From: Methanolobus sp. ZRKC5
GTDB taxonomy: Archaea; Halobacteriota; Methanosarcinia; Methanosarcinales; Methanosarcinaceae
NCBI RefSeq assembly: GCF_038446525.1
Contig: NZ_CP151792.1
Location: forward strand, 62,001-126,000
DNA length: 64,000 nucleotides
Direction of reading: 5' to 3'
Notes under the pieces: model-generated
Told to the model about the DNA's origin: nothing
What the model saw: only the letters and a program-made list of their open reading frames with translations
Database searches by the model: none
Position numbers and translations under genes: made by a program
Shown here: positions 19,641 to 56,731 of the stretch, piece by piece
Layout: each line of letters opens with the position of its first letter
How positions within the stretch are numbered: position 1 is the stretch's first letter

Positions 19641-21140
19641 ATGTCAAGCAGGTATAAATTACCAGATCACCTTACACTTATCCATCCGCGTTCATTAAAA
19701 CATTTGAATCATCATCTGCATGAACTTGTAAAAAGTAGACTCTGGTTAAAGATTCTCATAGGAATGATGCTGGGAATCGTTACAGGACTTATACTTGGGC
19801 CTTCCACTGGTATTTTGAGCAAGGAAATATCGTACACCATTGGTGAATGGCTGGCATTACCTGGATATATATTCCTTGCACTTCTCCAGATGATTGTTGT
19901 ACCACTTGTTTTTGCATCCATTATAAGGGGAATTGCATCTGGCGAAGATATGCAACAACTCAAAAAAATAGGACTTCGTACAGTTGCCTTTTTTCTCGTT
20001 ACCACTGCACTTGCAATACTTGTAGGGCTTACTCTTGCATTAACAATAAATCCTGGAACTTACATCAGCAGCGAGCTTGTCCAGGATACAATGATGTCAG
20101 ATACAACACAGATGGAACAAAATGAAATGATCACACCTGGTGTTTCTGAACTTCCTAGCATGATAACTACCATTGTACCAACCAATCCATTGGGATCACT
20201 TGCAACCGGAGATATGCTTCAGGTAGTCCTGTTCTCTGTGATTATAGGTGTGGCTCTTGTTTCTATGTCACCTGTGCAATCAAAACCAATGTTAGAGTTA
20301 TTAGGTTCTTTGCAGGAAGTAAGTATGACAGTTGTCAAATGGAGCATGGCACTGGCCCCAATTGCTGTTTTCGGACTGATTAGCAAATTTACAATCAATC
20401 TCGGACTTGATGCATTAATGGGGATGCTGGTCTATGTAGGTACGGTACTGTTGGGACTGTTAATTATGCTCATATTCTATATGATGGTCATCCTGATAGT
20501 AACGGGAAAAAATCCGTTGAATTTTATGAGATCAATAAGAGATGTATTATTACTCGCATTTTCCACATCCAGTTCTGCTGCTGTTATGCCACTTTCAATA
20601 AAAACGGCTGAGGAAAAAATAGGCGTCAGGCCGTCTATATCCCAATTCGTTATTCCCCTTGGCGCTACAATAAATATGAATGGTACAGCTCTTTACCAGA
20701 GCATAGCAGCTGTTTTCCTTGCGCAGGTATTTGGAATAGATCTTGGCTTCGGTGAATTGGTGCTGATAATGATAACTGTAGTTGGAGCCTCAATAGGTAC
20801 ACCATCTACGCCAGGAGTAGGTATTGTAATCCTTGCCCTGATACTGAGCAGTGTAGGAATACCCACTGCTGGTATTGCACTTATTATCGGAGTTGACAGG
20901 ATCCTTGATATGAGCCGTACTGCGGTTAATGTTACCGGAGACCTTGTCACATGTGTTGTTATGGATAAATGGGTGAACGGAAAGAAAAGTGCTAATGAAG
21001 AATTCATTGAAGTCGCAAAACGTGAAGCACAAAGAAGAGTACTTGGAGAAGATGTCATTATTACTGCACGTAACTATTCAGCCTGGCACGATTTGCCTAT
21101 TGGTACTGATTTCATCGAAATAGAGATGTCTGCTCACTAA
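19641..21140 (+). CDS. DAACS-family Na+/dicarboxylate-glutamate symporter with transposon-derived tail
   Basis: A 499-residue secondary transporter of the GltT/GltP/DctA family. Signature elements are all present: the serine-rich re-entrant loop STSSSAAVMP, the NMNGT motif in TM7 (ATINMNGTALYQ), the second hairpin GTPSTPGVG and the TM8 motif DMSRTAVNVTGD that binds the substrate amino group or carboxylate. It should take up aspartate, glutamate or C4-dicarboxylates with Na+ or H+. An N-terminal cytosolic stretch of about 30 residues precedes TM1. The last 23 residues (from RNYSAWHD to the end) are encoded by a 194-bp miniature transposon inserted at 21070. Without it, the gene would end ITAQE at the TAA now found at 21277-21279. 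Confidence 0.93.
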   Translation: MSSRYKLPDHLTLIHPRSLKHLNHHLHELVKSRLWLKILIGMMLGIVTGLILGPSTGILSKEISYTIGEWLALPGYIFLALLQMIVVPLVFASIIRGIASGEDMQQLKKIGLRTVAFFLVTTALAILVGLTLALTINPGTYISSELVQDTMMSDTTQMEQNEMITPGVSELPSMITTIVPTNPLGSLATGDMLQVVLFSVIIGVALVSMSPVQSKPMLELLGSLQEVSMTVVKWSMALAPIAVFGLISKFTINLGLDALMGMLVYVGTVLLGLLIMLIFYMMVILIVTGKNPLNFMRSIRDVLLLAFSTSSSAAVMPLSIKTAEEKIGVRPSISQFVIPLGATINMNGTALYQSIAAVFLAQVFGIDLGFGELVLIMITVVGASIGTPSTPGVGIVILALILSSVGIPTAGIALIIGVDRILDMSRTAVNVTGDLVTCVVMDKWVNGKKSANEEFIEVAKREAQRRVLGEDVIITARNYSAWHDLPIGTDFIEIEMSAH

Positions 21141-21263
21141 CAATCTAACAATCAAAAAAGCAATCAATAGCAACAATCAAAATAAATGATCCTAATGAAA
21201 TTTACGTTTCAACTTTTTGTCAAGATTGTTATTGATAGCGTTTTTATCAGGCTGAATAGTTAC
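21070..21263. mobile_element. 194-bp miniature element (MITE), copy 1
   Basis: Starts GTAACTATTCAGCCTG and ends CAGGCTGAATAGTTAC, a 16-bp terminal inverted repeat that matches the ends of the IS66 element at 32808-35580. Flanked by perfect 8-bp direct repeats TACTGCAC (21062-21069 and 21264-21271). It lies in the 3' end of the symporter gene and supplies its stop codon. No transposase gene; mobilisation in trans by the IS66-type enzyme is the obvious model. Confidence 0.88.
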
Positions 21264-21667
21264 TACTGCACAGGAATAAAAACAAACTTTTTTCTGGCAA
21301 CCAATTTAGTTCATTTTAGATTCCTGCCACGCAAAGCGTGGTTTTGGTTTATTTTTACGATTAAAACAGATGACATTCAATTAAAGCCATCCTTCAACAC
21401 CATATATTTCAAGTTTGGCAGTCAAAATTAATAAAAGTGTTCTTAGCTTTGTTGTAGTCGACAAACATGCAACAAAAACTAAGAACAGATGAGATTATTC
21501 CAAATGAGAATATATGCTTTCCTATCGGAACTATCCTGGCTGTAAATCAATTTTACGATCTACTTGATCTTTCCACTGTTTTTTGTAAACACAAACAGAA
21601 TGGAATTGACATTAACGACCTGTTAAAATCTCTTGTGAGCTATAAGCTCACAGATAATTTTAGTATA

Positions 21668-22547
21668 GAACTTATCTCAAAACGTCTCTTGAACTTTATT
21701 TCAACATAGTAGAAAACATGCAATATCCAGTAGCCCCTTGAAAACAACATTAAGCCTTTCATATCTACTTGCTATTCTTCTGAAACCCATCTTCAACCAT
21801 GCAAAAAATCGTTCTATTGTTCCTCTTTTATGGTATGACTCATACTCGAACCTTGTGGGCCTTCCTCTTTTTCTATTTTTCTCATTCCTGATATTTACAG
21901 GAATGTTACTTTTGATCGCTCTTGATCTCAAGTATTTTCTGATTACAACATTATCATAAGTAGAATCAGCAAGCACTTCTGATGGTCTTGTTCCTAGTCT
22001 TCCATCCGTCTTGACCCTGATACTTTCCATGACCTCGATGAAATGCTGACTATCATGCTCTTTTCCAGAAGCAATCTGTATTGTCAAAGGAAAAACTTCG
22101 CAACTTACACAAACATGGATCTTTATGCCGTTCCTTTTTTTGTGACTGTTGTATGCGGAATCTTCTCCCCTTTTTTAGTTTCAATGAAACTGCTATCAAC
22201 ACATACGACATCCATGGTGAACTTACCTTTTTGGTAAGCGGAATCCCGAAGGGATTCCATTATCATAGTCCATATTCCTTCCTCAGACCACCTTTTGAGT
22301 CTTCTCCAAGCAGTTGCCTGGGAACCATAATTAACTGGCATATCCCCCCATCTGCAACCTGTTATCAGAACAAAGAGAATACCATTGATGACCTTACGGT
22401 CATCAGCTCTCTCTCTTCCGGTTATTGGTTGTGGAGGTAAGTGTGGCCTAATAAACTTCCATTGCTCATCAGAGAGTTCTCTGAATTGCATTCATATCCC
22501 CATAATAACATTAAGAAAGATAGTATTTATAGTTTTGATATGGGTTC
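21668..22547 (-). mobile_element. IS5-family (IS427-like) insertion sequence
   Basis: About 880 bp with imperfect ends, GAACTTATCTCAAAAC on the left and the complement of GAACCCATATCAAAAC on the right. It carries a two-frame transposase on the minus strand. The size and the two-frame design fit the IS427 subgroup. No clear target duplication is seen, in line with a deletion at its right border. Confidence 0.72.
21701..22491 (-). CDS. IS5-family transposase, two frames joined by -1 frameshift
   Basis: OrfA (start 22491, MQFRELSDEQWKFIRPHLPP) is 122 codons and holds the N-terminal helix-turn-helix plus the first catalytic Asp in VCVDSSFIE. OrfB continues in the -1 frame through NGIKIHVCVS, EVLADSTYDN (second Asp) and TIERFFAWLK (Glu). 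The overlap contains a run of seven A residues, of the form A-AAA-AAG, where a programmed -1 slip would fuse the frames after VTKK to give a DDE transposase of about 260 residues. Both frames are intact, so this copy may still be functional. Confidence 0.78.
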
Positions 22548-25139: not shown

Positions 25140-25333
25140 GTAACTATTCAGCCTGATAAAAACACTATCAATAGCAATCTTGACAAAAAGTTGAGACCTA
25201 CATTTTATTAGGATCATTAATTTTGATTGTTGCCATTGATTGCTTTTTTGATTCTTAGGTTGTTAGTGAGCAAACATCTCCGTTTTGATTAAATCAGTAT
25301 CAATAGGCTAATTGTGGTAGGCTGAATAGTTAC
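25140..25333. mobile_element. 194-bp miniature element (MITE), copy 2
   Basis: Same length and ends as the copy at 21070, with the opposite orientation. Flanked by perfect 8-bp direct repeats AAATAAAC (25132-25139 and 25334-25341). It sits in the 400-bp intergenic gap between the Rieske gene and the next membrane protein; the rest of the gap is unremarkable AT-rich promoter DNA. Confidence 0.88.
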
Positions 25334-32723: not shown

Positions 32724-32852
32724 ATATAGTTCATATCTGATTATTCTATCCTGCATTATTACAATATATACATAACTATATTTTTTAGATTAAGCAATTA
32801 TAAAAAGGTAACTATTCAGCCTGACTGTTTTAATGATGCAAAAAACAATATA

Positions 32853-33999
32853 GAGGATTTCGATAAACTACCATCAATACCCATACAATTTAATAAAATT
32901 TAAATAATAGCAAAGCAAATTTACTATTATGGATTCTTTTACTGATTTTACCTTAAATGAAGAATATAAGCGTCTCCAATCTGTCGGAGATAAGCTTGCT
33001 GAAATTGAATATTTAGTAGATTGGAAGCCTTTTCGCCCTATTCTGGAGTCAATGTACATAAACAGAACAGCTTCAGGCGGACGGCCTGAAGCTGATGTTA
33101 TTGTAATGTTCAAGATGCTTGTTCTGCAACAATGGCATGGTCTTTCTGATGCTGAGCTTGAAAAGCAGTGTATTGACAGGATATCCTTTAGGAAATTCCT
33201 GGGATTTCCTGAATATGTACCAGACAGTACAACTGTCTGGTCATTCAGGAAGAGAATTATCGACAATGGTAAAGAAAAAGCGGTGTGGGATGAAATGCAG
33301 AATCAGCTTGATGCTCTTGGTTTGAAGATTAAAAAAGGAATGATCCAGGATGCAACTTTTATTCACTCAGATCCAGGACATGCAAAAGCAGATGTACTCA
33401 GAGGAAAAGATGCGAAAACAAGAAGAAGCAAAGATGGAACCTGGACTAAGAAAAATGGTAAATCTCACTTTGGATACAAACTTCATACAATTATTGATAA
33501 GGATTATGAACTAATCAGAAGATTTGAGACAACAACTGCATCACTTCACGATTCACAGGTTGATCTGTCTGAAAAGGGTGAAGTGGTGTATAGAGATAAA
33601 GGATATTTTGGAGCAATAGCAAAAGGTTTTGCAGCAACAATGCAACGAGCTGTAAGAGGACATCCTTTAGGAATAATGGATATCCTCAGAAATGAAAGAA
33701 TAAGTGTGAAAAGAGTCCCTTGCGAAAGAGTGTATGCAGTGACAAAAGAAATATTTAAAACCAGAAAGGTTCTTGTTACAACTGTAGAAAGAGTGAATGC
33801 AAAAATGTTGATGACAGCTTTTTGTTTTAATCTGCATCAATTGAGGACACTAAAAACCAAAGGAGTAATTTAGGATAGCGGGAGCTATACTAAAAATAAG
33901 GATTAATGAAGAGAAATTAAACAAAATGATAAAAAATGAGAGGATATAATTGAGTTTGAATACTTTAATGATCTAAAATGAGGGAATATCGAAATCCTC
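32853..33999 (+). mobile_element. IS5-family element, copy A
   Basis: An 1147-bp element with 13-bp terminal repeats GAGGATTTCGATA and TATCGAAATCCTC, inserted just inside the left end of the IS66 element and flanked by TA on both sides. It appears identical to the copy at 58471-59617. Confidence 0.88.
32929..33873 (+). CDS. IS5-family transposase (copy A)
   Basis: A 314-residue single-frame transposase with an intact sequence. The N-terminal DUF772-like DNA-binding region contains SGGRPEADVIVMFKMLVLQQ and LSDAELEKQCIDRISFRKFL. The DDE core follows: first Asp in GMIQDATFIHSD, second in VYRDKGYFG, and Glu in the VERVNAKMLMTAF helix region. The basic segment KTRRSKDGTWTKK between the first two is typical of this IS5 group. 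The protein is identical to the copy at 58547, so both are likely active or only recently moved. Its position separates the IS66 transposase from its left end. Confidence 0.9.
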   Translation: MDSFTDFTLNEEYKRLQSVGDKLAEIEYLVDWKPFRPILESMYINRTASGGRPEADVIVMFKMLVLQQWHGLSDAELEKQCIDRISFRKFLGFPEYVPDSTTVWSFRKRIIDNGKEKAVWDEMQNQLDALGLKIKKGMIQDATFIHSDPGHAKADVLRGKDAKTRRSKDGTWTKKNGKSHFGYKLHTIIDKDYELIRRFETTTASLHDSQVDLSEKGEVVYRDKGYFGAIAKGFAATMQRAVRGHPLGIMDILRNERISVKRVPCERVYAVTKEIFKTRKVLVTTVERVNAKMLMTAFCFNLHQLRTLKTKGVI

Positions 34000-34080
34000 T
34001 ATACTATGGCTTCATTCTATGTGTTAAAAAATATTCAGTAAAATATCATAAAAAACGTCTATCAATCTGAGGGGATTTGT

Positions 34081-35529
34081 ATAGACCGCGAAGAAATACT
34101 TGCAGTTTATGAAGCTGGTCCAGAAGCAGTAGTAGAACTTGTAACTCGATTACTTGGGATAATTGAACATCAATCTCTCCAAATTGCACAACTTGAAGAG
34201 CGTGTCAGGCATTTGGAAGAAATGCTTGAAAAGAATAGTCGCAACAGTAGCAAACCACCTTCTACTGATTCTTATGCACGGAATAAACCAACCGTTAAAA
34301 GTCAAAGAAAAAAGACCAATAAGCATGTAGGTGGTCAAAACGGTCATCCTGGTACTACATTAAGAATAAATGATGATCCGGATGAAGTTATTGTTCATCC
34401 TGTTAATCAATGCGTCAATTGTGGGAGATCGTTAGCTTCTGTTCCCTCTGACTATGAAAGAAGACAGGTCTTTGACATTCCTCCTATAACTATCAATTGC
34501 ATTGAACATCGTTGCGAGATTAAAACATGTCCCAAATGTTCTCATGTAAACAAAGCTCTTTTTCCAGATGGTGTAACTCAGCCGACTCAATACGGTCATC
34601 GAGTTAAGTCATTTGCAGTTTATTTGCACACTTACCAATTACTTCCTTATCAGCGTGTTACCAAGTTGTTCTCTGATATTTTGGGATGCAAGATAAGTCC
34701 TGCTACTTTGGTGAACACGGAACGTAGTTGTTTTGAGAAGCTTGGAGCTTTTGAAAATACAGTGAAACATCTCCTGAAAGAATCTCCTGTCATCAATCTG
34801 GATGAAACAGGAATGAGAATAAATGCAGTTCGTAATTGGCTTCATGTGGCAGGTACAGACAAACTGACCTATTATTTTGCACATCGCAAAAGGGGCTCAG
34901 AAGCAATGGATGCTATGGGCATATTACCAGGTTACACTGGTGTTGCAACACATGATTTTTGGAAACCGTACAACAAATATGAATGTCAACATTCATTATG
35001 TAATGCACATTTATTACGAGAGTTAACTGGAGCTTCCGAAAACAGTGATCAACAGTGGCCAAAGATAATGAGTGATCTCTTGATATGCATTAAACATCAT
35101 GTTGATAATGATCTTTTAGATACTGAGCTAATTCAAAGGTTCAGTGAGGATTATGATCACATAACTTGTTTAGGAGTGAATGAAAATCCTCCTGATCCGG
35201 AATCAAATGTGCGGTCTAAAAAACGAGGACGTAAGAAGCAGACCACGGTAAAGAATTTGCTGGATAGGTTTATTGGCCATAAAGAGGATATCTTGCGATT
35301 TATGTACGACCAAAACGTTCCGTTTGATAACAATCAGGCTGAAAGAGATATCAGAATGACGAAAGTACAGCAGAAGATATCAGGTACTTTCCGCAGTGAA
35401 CAGGGTGCAAAAAATTTCTGCCGTATAAGAGGATACGTGTCTACTGTTAATAAGAATTCTGAATCTGTTATCGATGCAATTAGTGCAATATTTTATGGCA
35501 ATTCATTTGTTCCAAAGTTGCAGAATTGA
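34081..35529 (+). CDS. IS66-family transposase
   Basis: A transposase of about 480 residues. Coding similarity begins at 34081 (IDREEILAVYEAGPEAVVEL), six bases behind GAGGGG, but the codon there is ATA; the first standard start in frame is TTG 34213. A coiled-coil region (QLEERVRHLEEMLEKNSRNS) leads into SSKPPSTDS, the IS66 zinc-finger motif (CVNCGRSLAS, CPKCSH) and the DDE core: LDETGMR, then ATHDFWKPYNKY, CNAHLLREL, and VPFDNNQAERDIRMTK with the catalytic Glu. The frame is intact. Start usage suggests either a decayed start codon or very low expression; the enzyme would also recognise the ends of the 194-bp miniature elements. Confidence 0.88.
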   Translation: MDREEILAVYEAGPEAVVELVTRLLGIIEHQSLQIAQLEERVRHLEEMLEKNSRNSSKPPSTDSYARNKPTVKSQRKKTNKHVGGQNGHPGTTLRINDDPDEVIVHPVNQCVNCGRSLASVPSDYERRQVFDIPPITINCIEHRCEIKTCPKCSHVNKALFPDGVTQPTQYGHRVKSFAVYLHTYQLLPYQRVTKLFSDILGCKISPATLVNTERSCFEKLGAFENTVKHLLKESPVINLDETGMRINAVRNWLHVAGTDKLTYYFAHRKRGSEAMDAMGILPGYTGVATHDFWKPYNKYECQHSLCNAHLLRELTGASENSDQQWPKIMSDLLICIKHHVDNDLLDTELIQRFSEDYDHITCLGVNENPPDPESNVRSKKRGRKKQTTVKNLLDRFIGHKEDILRFMYDQNVPFDNNQAERDIRMTKVQQKISGTFRSEQGAKNFCRIRGYVSTVNKNSESVIDAISAIFYGNSFVPKLQN

Positions 35530-35676
35530 TCGTGGATGAAGAAATCAGCTTGGTGGAAGTGAGCTAGGCTGAATAGTTACATAAAAAGAACTATTATGAA
35601 ATATATTATGCACAATATTACATTAATTCATAATGTTTATATAGTTAGTAACCAGTTATTTCGCTGGTGAAATAGT

Positions 35677-56537: not shown

Positions 56538-56731
56538 GTAACTATTCAGCCTGATAAAAACGCTATCAATAACAATCTTGACAAAAAGTTGAAACGTAAA
56601 TTTCATTAGGATCATTTATTTTGATTGTTGCTATTGATTGCTTTTTTGATTGTTAGATTGTTAGTGAGCAGACATCTCTATTTCGATGAAATCAGTACCA
56701 ATAGGCAAATCGTGCCAGGCTGAATAGTTAC
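56538..56731. mobile_element. 194-bp miniature element (MITE), copy 3
   Basis: Same length and terminal repeats (GTAACTATTCAGCCTG ... CAGGCTGAATAGTTAC) as copies at 21070 and 25140. Unlike them it has no target duplication: flanks are AATTTGTT on the left and CAAAGATA on the right. This suggests that the two sides were joined by recombination between two copies rather than by a single insertion. Confidence 0.85.

Follow-up and report, generated by a model that had tools for sequence, protein, structure and literature searches.

A recently inserted IS66-type MITE provides the predicted C-terminus and stop codon of an SDF-family symporter in Methanolobus

The 64,000-nucleotide stretch of Methanolobus DNA analysed here (the window) contains a gene for an SDF-family (glutamate/dicarboxylate, DAACS) symporter at 19641-21140 (+), whose 499-residue product, as read from the frame, ends in 23 residues and a stop codon that lie within a short repeated element. 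This raises the question of how a conserved carrier came to end in repeat-derived DNA, and of whether the added tail matters to the protein. The features at the locus, in window coordinates, are as follows.

19641 to 21140, plus strand: SDF-family symporter gene (PF00375), from the open reading frame and Pfam
21062 to 21069, plus strand: left 8-bp target-site duplication (TSD), TACTGCAC, from the sequence
21069 to 21140, plus strand: MITE-supplied tail RNYSAWHDLPIGTDFIEIEMSAH and TAA, with codon 477 beginning on the last base of the TSD, from reading the frame
21070 to 21263, plus strand: type-A MITE with IS66-type ends, one of 83 genome copies, from terminal inverted repeats (TIRs), TSD and genome matches
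21070 to 21085, plus strand: left 16-bp TIR, GTAACTATTCAGCCTG
21248 to 21263, minus strand: right 16-bp TIR, CAGGCTGAATAGTTAC, 100% complementary to the left
21264 to 21271, plus strand: right 8-bp TSD, TACTGCAC, identical to the left
21272 to 21279, plus strand: displaced native gene end (AG of CAG for Q, GAA for E, TAA), from the frame of the joined flanks and matching the orthologue in genome G003 (DVIITTQE-TAA)

The symporter retains a complete SDF domain (PF00375, E=7e-120, residues 34-444, profile positions 1-387 of 387 in a Pfam search), and the change is confined to its end. Codon 477 consists of the C that closes the TSD and the first two bases (GT) of the element, which then contributes codons 478-499 in full, together with the TAA at 21138-21140; the MITE is thus the source of residues 477-499 and of the stop codon. 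When the flanks are rejoined without the element and with a single TSD, the gene instead reads ...GCA CAG GAA TAA, ending ITAQE with its TAA at 21277-21279. A preliminary description of this DNA had proposed both that frame and the perfect 8-bp repeats around a 194-bp element, and we reproduced each exactly. The net effect is that QE is exchanged for 23 residues, lengthening the protein from 478 to 499 amino acids and leaving the first 476 residues otherwise intact. That the tail is read as protein is a prediction from this intact frame. Just downstream lies an IS4/5-type element (21701-22491, minus strand), perhaps frameshifted or broken, whose transposase is split over two ORFs, a DUF4096 part at 22123-22491 and a DDE_Tnp_1 part at 21701-22087.

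Related genomes point to the same native end. A search of 60 of them gave 30 with a protein match, and the C-terminal ends of about 26 orthologues were read; L059 was excluded because its ORF continues into another protein, and L070 is apparently the same contig as L060. The tail occurs in none of these approximately 26 ends, and the insertion claim thus survives the check for element-free orthologues bearing the same tail. The short ITAQE-like terminus anticipated by the preliminary description is seen in the nearest two orthologues (92% and 90% identical), which stop at the predicted place with DVIVTAPEEQ-TAA and DVIITTQE-TAA, compared with DVIITAQE-TAA for the joined flanks. In a DNA alignment of five orthologues, homology continues to the gene end with no element, and it is from such related species that we infer the exact empty insertion site. 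Elsewhere the C-termini of orthologues differ in both length and sequence, indicating that this end of the protein tolerates change. The insertion, its TSD, the changed frame and the absence of the element from relatives are all shown by the DNA. The locus is a C-terminal fusion in which a MITE gives a conserved gene its last codons and stop, while element-free orthologues lack the tail; together with the TSD and the multi-copy nature of the element, the approximately 26 tail-less orthologues strongly support the original idea that a miniature transposon is the source of this C-terminus.

The element belongs to an abundant family. In the 3.05-Mb genome (one contig), the 16-bp TIR with up to two mismatches has 161 + 166 matches against 0 + 2 for a reversed control, and the full type-A left end has 83 against none, counts so far above the controls that the repeat cannot be attributed to chance. 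Of the 83 type-A copies, all of which were extracted, 81 have a length of exactly 194 bp and 52 are identical to the copy in the symporter. Exact 8-bp TSDs flank 60 of the 83, rising to 69 if one mismatch is allowed, and other TSD lengths (4 to 12) are nearly missing among the first 73 copies extracted. The presence of at least 83 near-identical copies reflects recent multiplication in this genome. A sister type, type B, adds at least 29 further copies, with exact 8-bp TSDs in 25/29. The element has the properties of a MITE in that it is short, multi-copy, bounded by TIRs and a TSD and devoid of a transposase gene (frames initiated at its ends run to 23 codons at most), and in that the genome houses an IS66-family insertion sequence (IS) with matching ends and an 8-bp TSD. 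No Rfam family was found across window positions 20800-21800, a plasmid collection gave no match to the MITE, and our literature search found no paper on MITEs in Methanolobus. Three related features lie elsewhere in the window.

25140 to 25333, minus strand: type-B MITE of 194 bp, intergenic, with TSD AAATAAAC, from genome and window matches
32808 to 35580, plus strand: IS66-family IS (L079), the likely mobilising type, interrupted, with TSD ATAAAAAG, from its ends and transposase matches
56538 to 56731, minus strand: second type-A MITE of the window, identical to that at 21070-21263 on the opposite strand, intergenic and without a TSD, from genome and window matches

The flanks of the copy at 56538-56731 differ (AATTTGTT and CAAAGATA), and its lack of a TSD suggests inter-copy recombination or local rearrangement. 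Tandem copies about one TSD (7-8 bp) apart occur genome-wide (e.g. L005, L026, L134 and L141), and a type-A copy is nested in a type-B copy at genome positions 209980-210375; such arrangements indicate that copies act as targets, or target-adjacent sites, for one another.

What moves the MITE? IS66-family elements have ends starting GTAA and generate 8-bp TSDs. The resident IS is 1622 bp long and has a single gene, whose transposase product scores 312 bits with NF033517 (cut-off 180) and also matches PF03050; 31 full-length transposase copies are present in the genome. At each end of the IS the outermost 15-16 bp agree with those of the MITE, and its own TSD of 8 bp is exact at 22 of the 27 sites measured. 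The clear match between the two is confined to the terminal 15-17 bp and the interiors hold no clear shared sequence, so the idea that the MITE arose from the resident IS simply by internal deletion was rejected. Paired IS and MITE ends recur in other genomes of the genus; in one of these, G006, an IS (L177/L195) and a MITE (L033) again have a common end, GTAACTATTCAGCC, and exact 8-bp TSDs. Common ends, equal TSD length and the recurrence of the pairing elsewhere in the genus lend good support to the view that the IS66-family transposase would move the MITE in trans. The IS66 element of the window is itself disrupted: some 45 bp in from its left end sits an insertion of about 1.15 kb, in which an ORF at 32929-33873 (314 aa) has the look of a putative IS5-type transposase.

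We surveyed 135 insertion sites, pooled over the IS and the two MITE types, with ORFs called crudely at a minimum length of 100 aa. Insertions inside ORFs are strongly depleted (32/135 versus about 101 expected from shifted positions at the same loci), and most MITE copies are intergenic. In 44 cases the insertion lies downstream of an ORF 3' end by no more than 100 bp, compared with 24 expected from A+T-matched intergenic positions, and MITE and IS66 insertions are rarer near ORF 5' ends. Either selection or target choice, for instance of terminator regions, may underlie this bias towards 3' ends. The symporter insertion sits at the edge of the pattern.

Nor is the symporter alone in having its end rewritten. 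ORFs running into the element were traced for every extracted type-A and type-B copy, and a macrodomain protein (PF01661; L103) gains 23 residues, VTIQPDKNTINSNLDKKLRPTFY, going from 176 to 199 aa, while an ORF without a known family (L165) grows from 469 to 476 aa. Others are shortened: a GNAT protein from 167 to 159 aa (L168), a B12-binding protein from 235 to 230 aa (L028) and a 971-aa ORF to 474 (L003). A corrinoid-protein-like ORF (L161) is truncated, as are two PAS-domain-like signalling ORFs, one at L104/L157 and the other, by type B, at L155 (all named by eye). The insertions at L104 (genome position 749836) and L157 (751204) fall in one long gene, which type-A and type-B copies have cut into pieces. 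Among the MITEs of relatives we found a single doubtful ORF of at least 90 aa entering an element. The GTAA end of the MITE provides a TAA in one frame, and the family as a whole has a small, fixed repertoire of endings to give; the symporter is no special case but belongs with a handful of comparable events. It is conceivable, though we regard it as doubtful, that an archaeal IS66-type MITE family which prefers gene 3' ends has thereby given a batch of young tails to unrelated proteins in one genome, of which some would be translated and some would influence the fate of the protein. The endings in that scenario would depend on frame, being either an immediate TAA at the GTAA end or about 5, 7, 14-17 or 22-23 residues.

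Does the tail mean anything to the symporter? It contains 2 D, 2 E, 1 R, 2 H and 3 aromatic residues, with a pI of 4.7 and a GRAVY of -0.40, so that its earlier characterisation as highly charged overstates the charge of what is a moderately acidic peptide. The further proposal, that the tail has consequences for assembly or regulation, found no support: the insertion is young, its frame carries no codon-position signature, and homologues of solved structure align only to about residue 459, before the tail, and are therefore silent on it. An AlphaFold2 model from a two-sequence alignment has a mean pLDDT of 35, too low to support any claim on the structure of the tail. A tail selected because it changes symporter assembly, stability or regulation would at least fit its aromatic and acidic residues and its in-frame attachment to a carrier whose 476 residues are otherwise intact. 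We nevertheless consider this highly improbable, given that most copies of the element are identical and the insertion therefore recent, that the peptide is simply the stock translation of that frame in 77/83 type-A copies, that orthologue C-termini vary in length and sequence, and that the genes bearing such tails are functionally unrelated. Selection might alternatively act on the MITE itself, as a family with a conserved peptide frame favoured for in-frame insertion of the kind proposed for Rickettsia palindromic elements. In many related MITEs of other genomes the left-end frame indeed runs for about 22-25 codons without a stop (NYSAYHNLPIDTDFIETEMFAH-like), but across these related MITEs there is no third-position excess (entropy 0.94/0.81/0.84 for codon positions 1/2/3), and in the close MITE group the changed columns fall 7/7/5 of 18 by codon position. 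Type B and some relatives moreover have the frame interrupted, mononucleotide shuffling of the element leaves it open as far as the tail frame in 18% of cases, and copies are mostly intergenic. The codon-position test largely refutes a selected coding frame, which we rejected and which seems about as improbable as a selected tail.

The remaining alternatives concern the RNA and the history of the gene. The 194-nt element RNA folds strongly (-53.1 kcal/mol, z = -5.8), with the coding tail and stop in its 5' arm, and this makes an effect on the mRNA 3' end a serious alternative, in which a hairpin alters termination or stability and the protein tail is incidental. The element also parts the gene from a native 3' flank containing a T-run, and insertions cluster past gene 3' ends. 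Against this, the complementary arms would make any such element fold, and the 3' bias may merely reflect the purging of promoter and coding insertions. We judge it unlikely that the RNA is where the main effect lies; such an effect would in any case be compatible with the tail and does not exclude it. The reverse history, in which the symporter had this tail from the start and the repeat formed around it, can be set aside almost entirely: nothing was found in its favour, none of the orthologues read carries the tail, and the same DNA stands at 82 other places in the genome.

Our preferred explanation for the locus, to which we assign a probability of roughly 0.93, is a recent IS66-mobilised MITE insertion that re-ends the symporter, with a tail that is tolerated and whose translation is predicted. 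The IS66-family transposase of this genome would have acted in trans on the TIRs that its IS has in common with a non-autonomous IS66-type MITE, and would recently have moved that MITE into the final codons of the conserved symporter gene, with duplication of 8 bp of target. Translation would enter the element in the single left-end frame that is open for 22 codons before a TAA, and because of this QE gives way to the 23-residue tail and the native stop is left untranslated. The insertion is real and recent. Given the variable C-terminus of the family and the tendency of MITE copies to lie at gene 3' ends or just past them, the tail is most likely tolerated and probably near-neutral.

Comparable events are known from bacteria. 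In Coxiella burnetii, QMITE1 and QMITE2 are MITEs at gene 3' ends which confer C-terminal residues and a stop, with extensions of 12 aa in pntAA, 16 aa in the proline/betaine transporter CBU_2058 and 33 aa in EnhC, and genes of known function are among those struck at their 3' ends (PMC5896051). The Methanolobus MITE resembles the QMITEs in giving both a C-terminus and a stop, to transporters among others, but the QMITEs are bacterial and unrelated in sequence, whereas the element described here is archaeal, with IS66-type ends, 8-bp TSDs and a multi-copy full-length partner. The RU elements of enterobacteria are small mobile repeats whose open frames are fused into annotated genes and have been proposed to yield new peptides (Delihas 2007, PMC2759123); these are other elements in other hosts. 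Rickettsia palindromic elements, of about 150 bp, make in-frame insertions in coding genes, nearly half of the elements lying in frame inside genes (reviewed in PMC10969869). The Methanolobus MITE is unlike them, since its insertions are depleted in ORFs and its frame gave no third-position excess and no coding signature. Compared with IS66 elements of the single-ORF type, which the resident partner resembles in its NF033517/PF03050 transposase, GTAA ends and 8-bp TSD, the MITE has the ends only, lacks a transposase, and has an interior that does not come from the resident IS. A C-terminus given by a MITE is thus an already known kind of event, and the novelty here lies in the particular MITE family, in the IS66-type element that partners it and in the host being an archaeon. 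The symporter provides a clean and very recent archaeal case in which a mobile element swaps a protein C-terminus and the gene is not destroyed, and the many near-identical copies in one genome are raw material for new protein ends that can be counted before much selection has acted.
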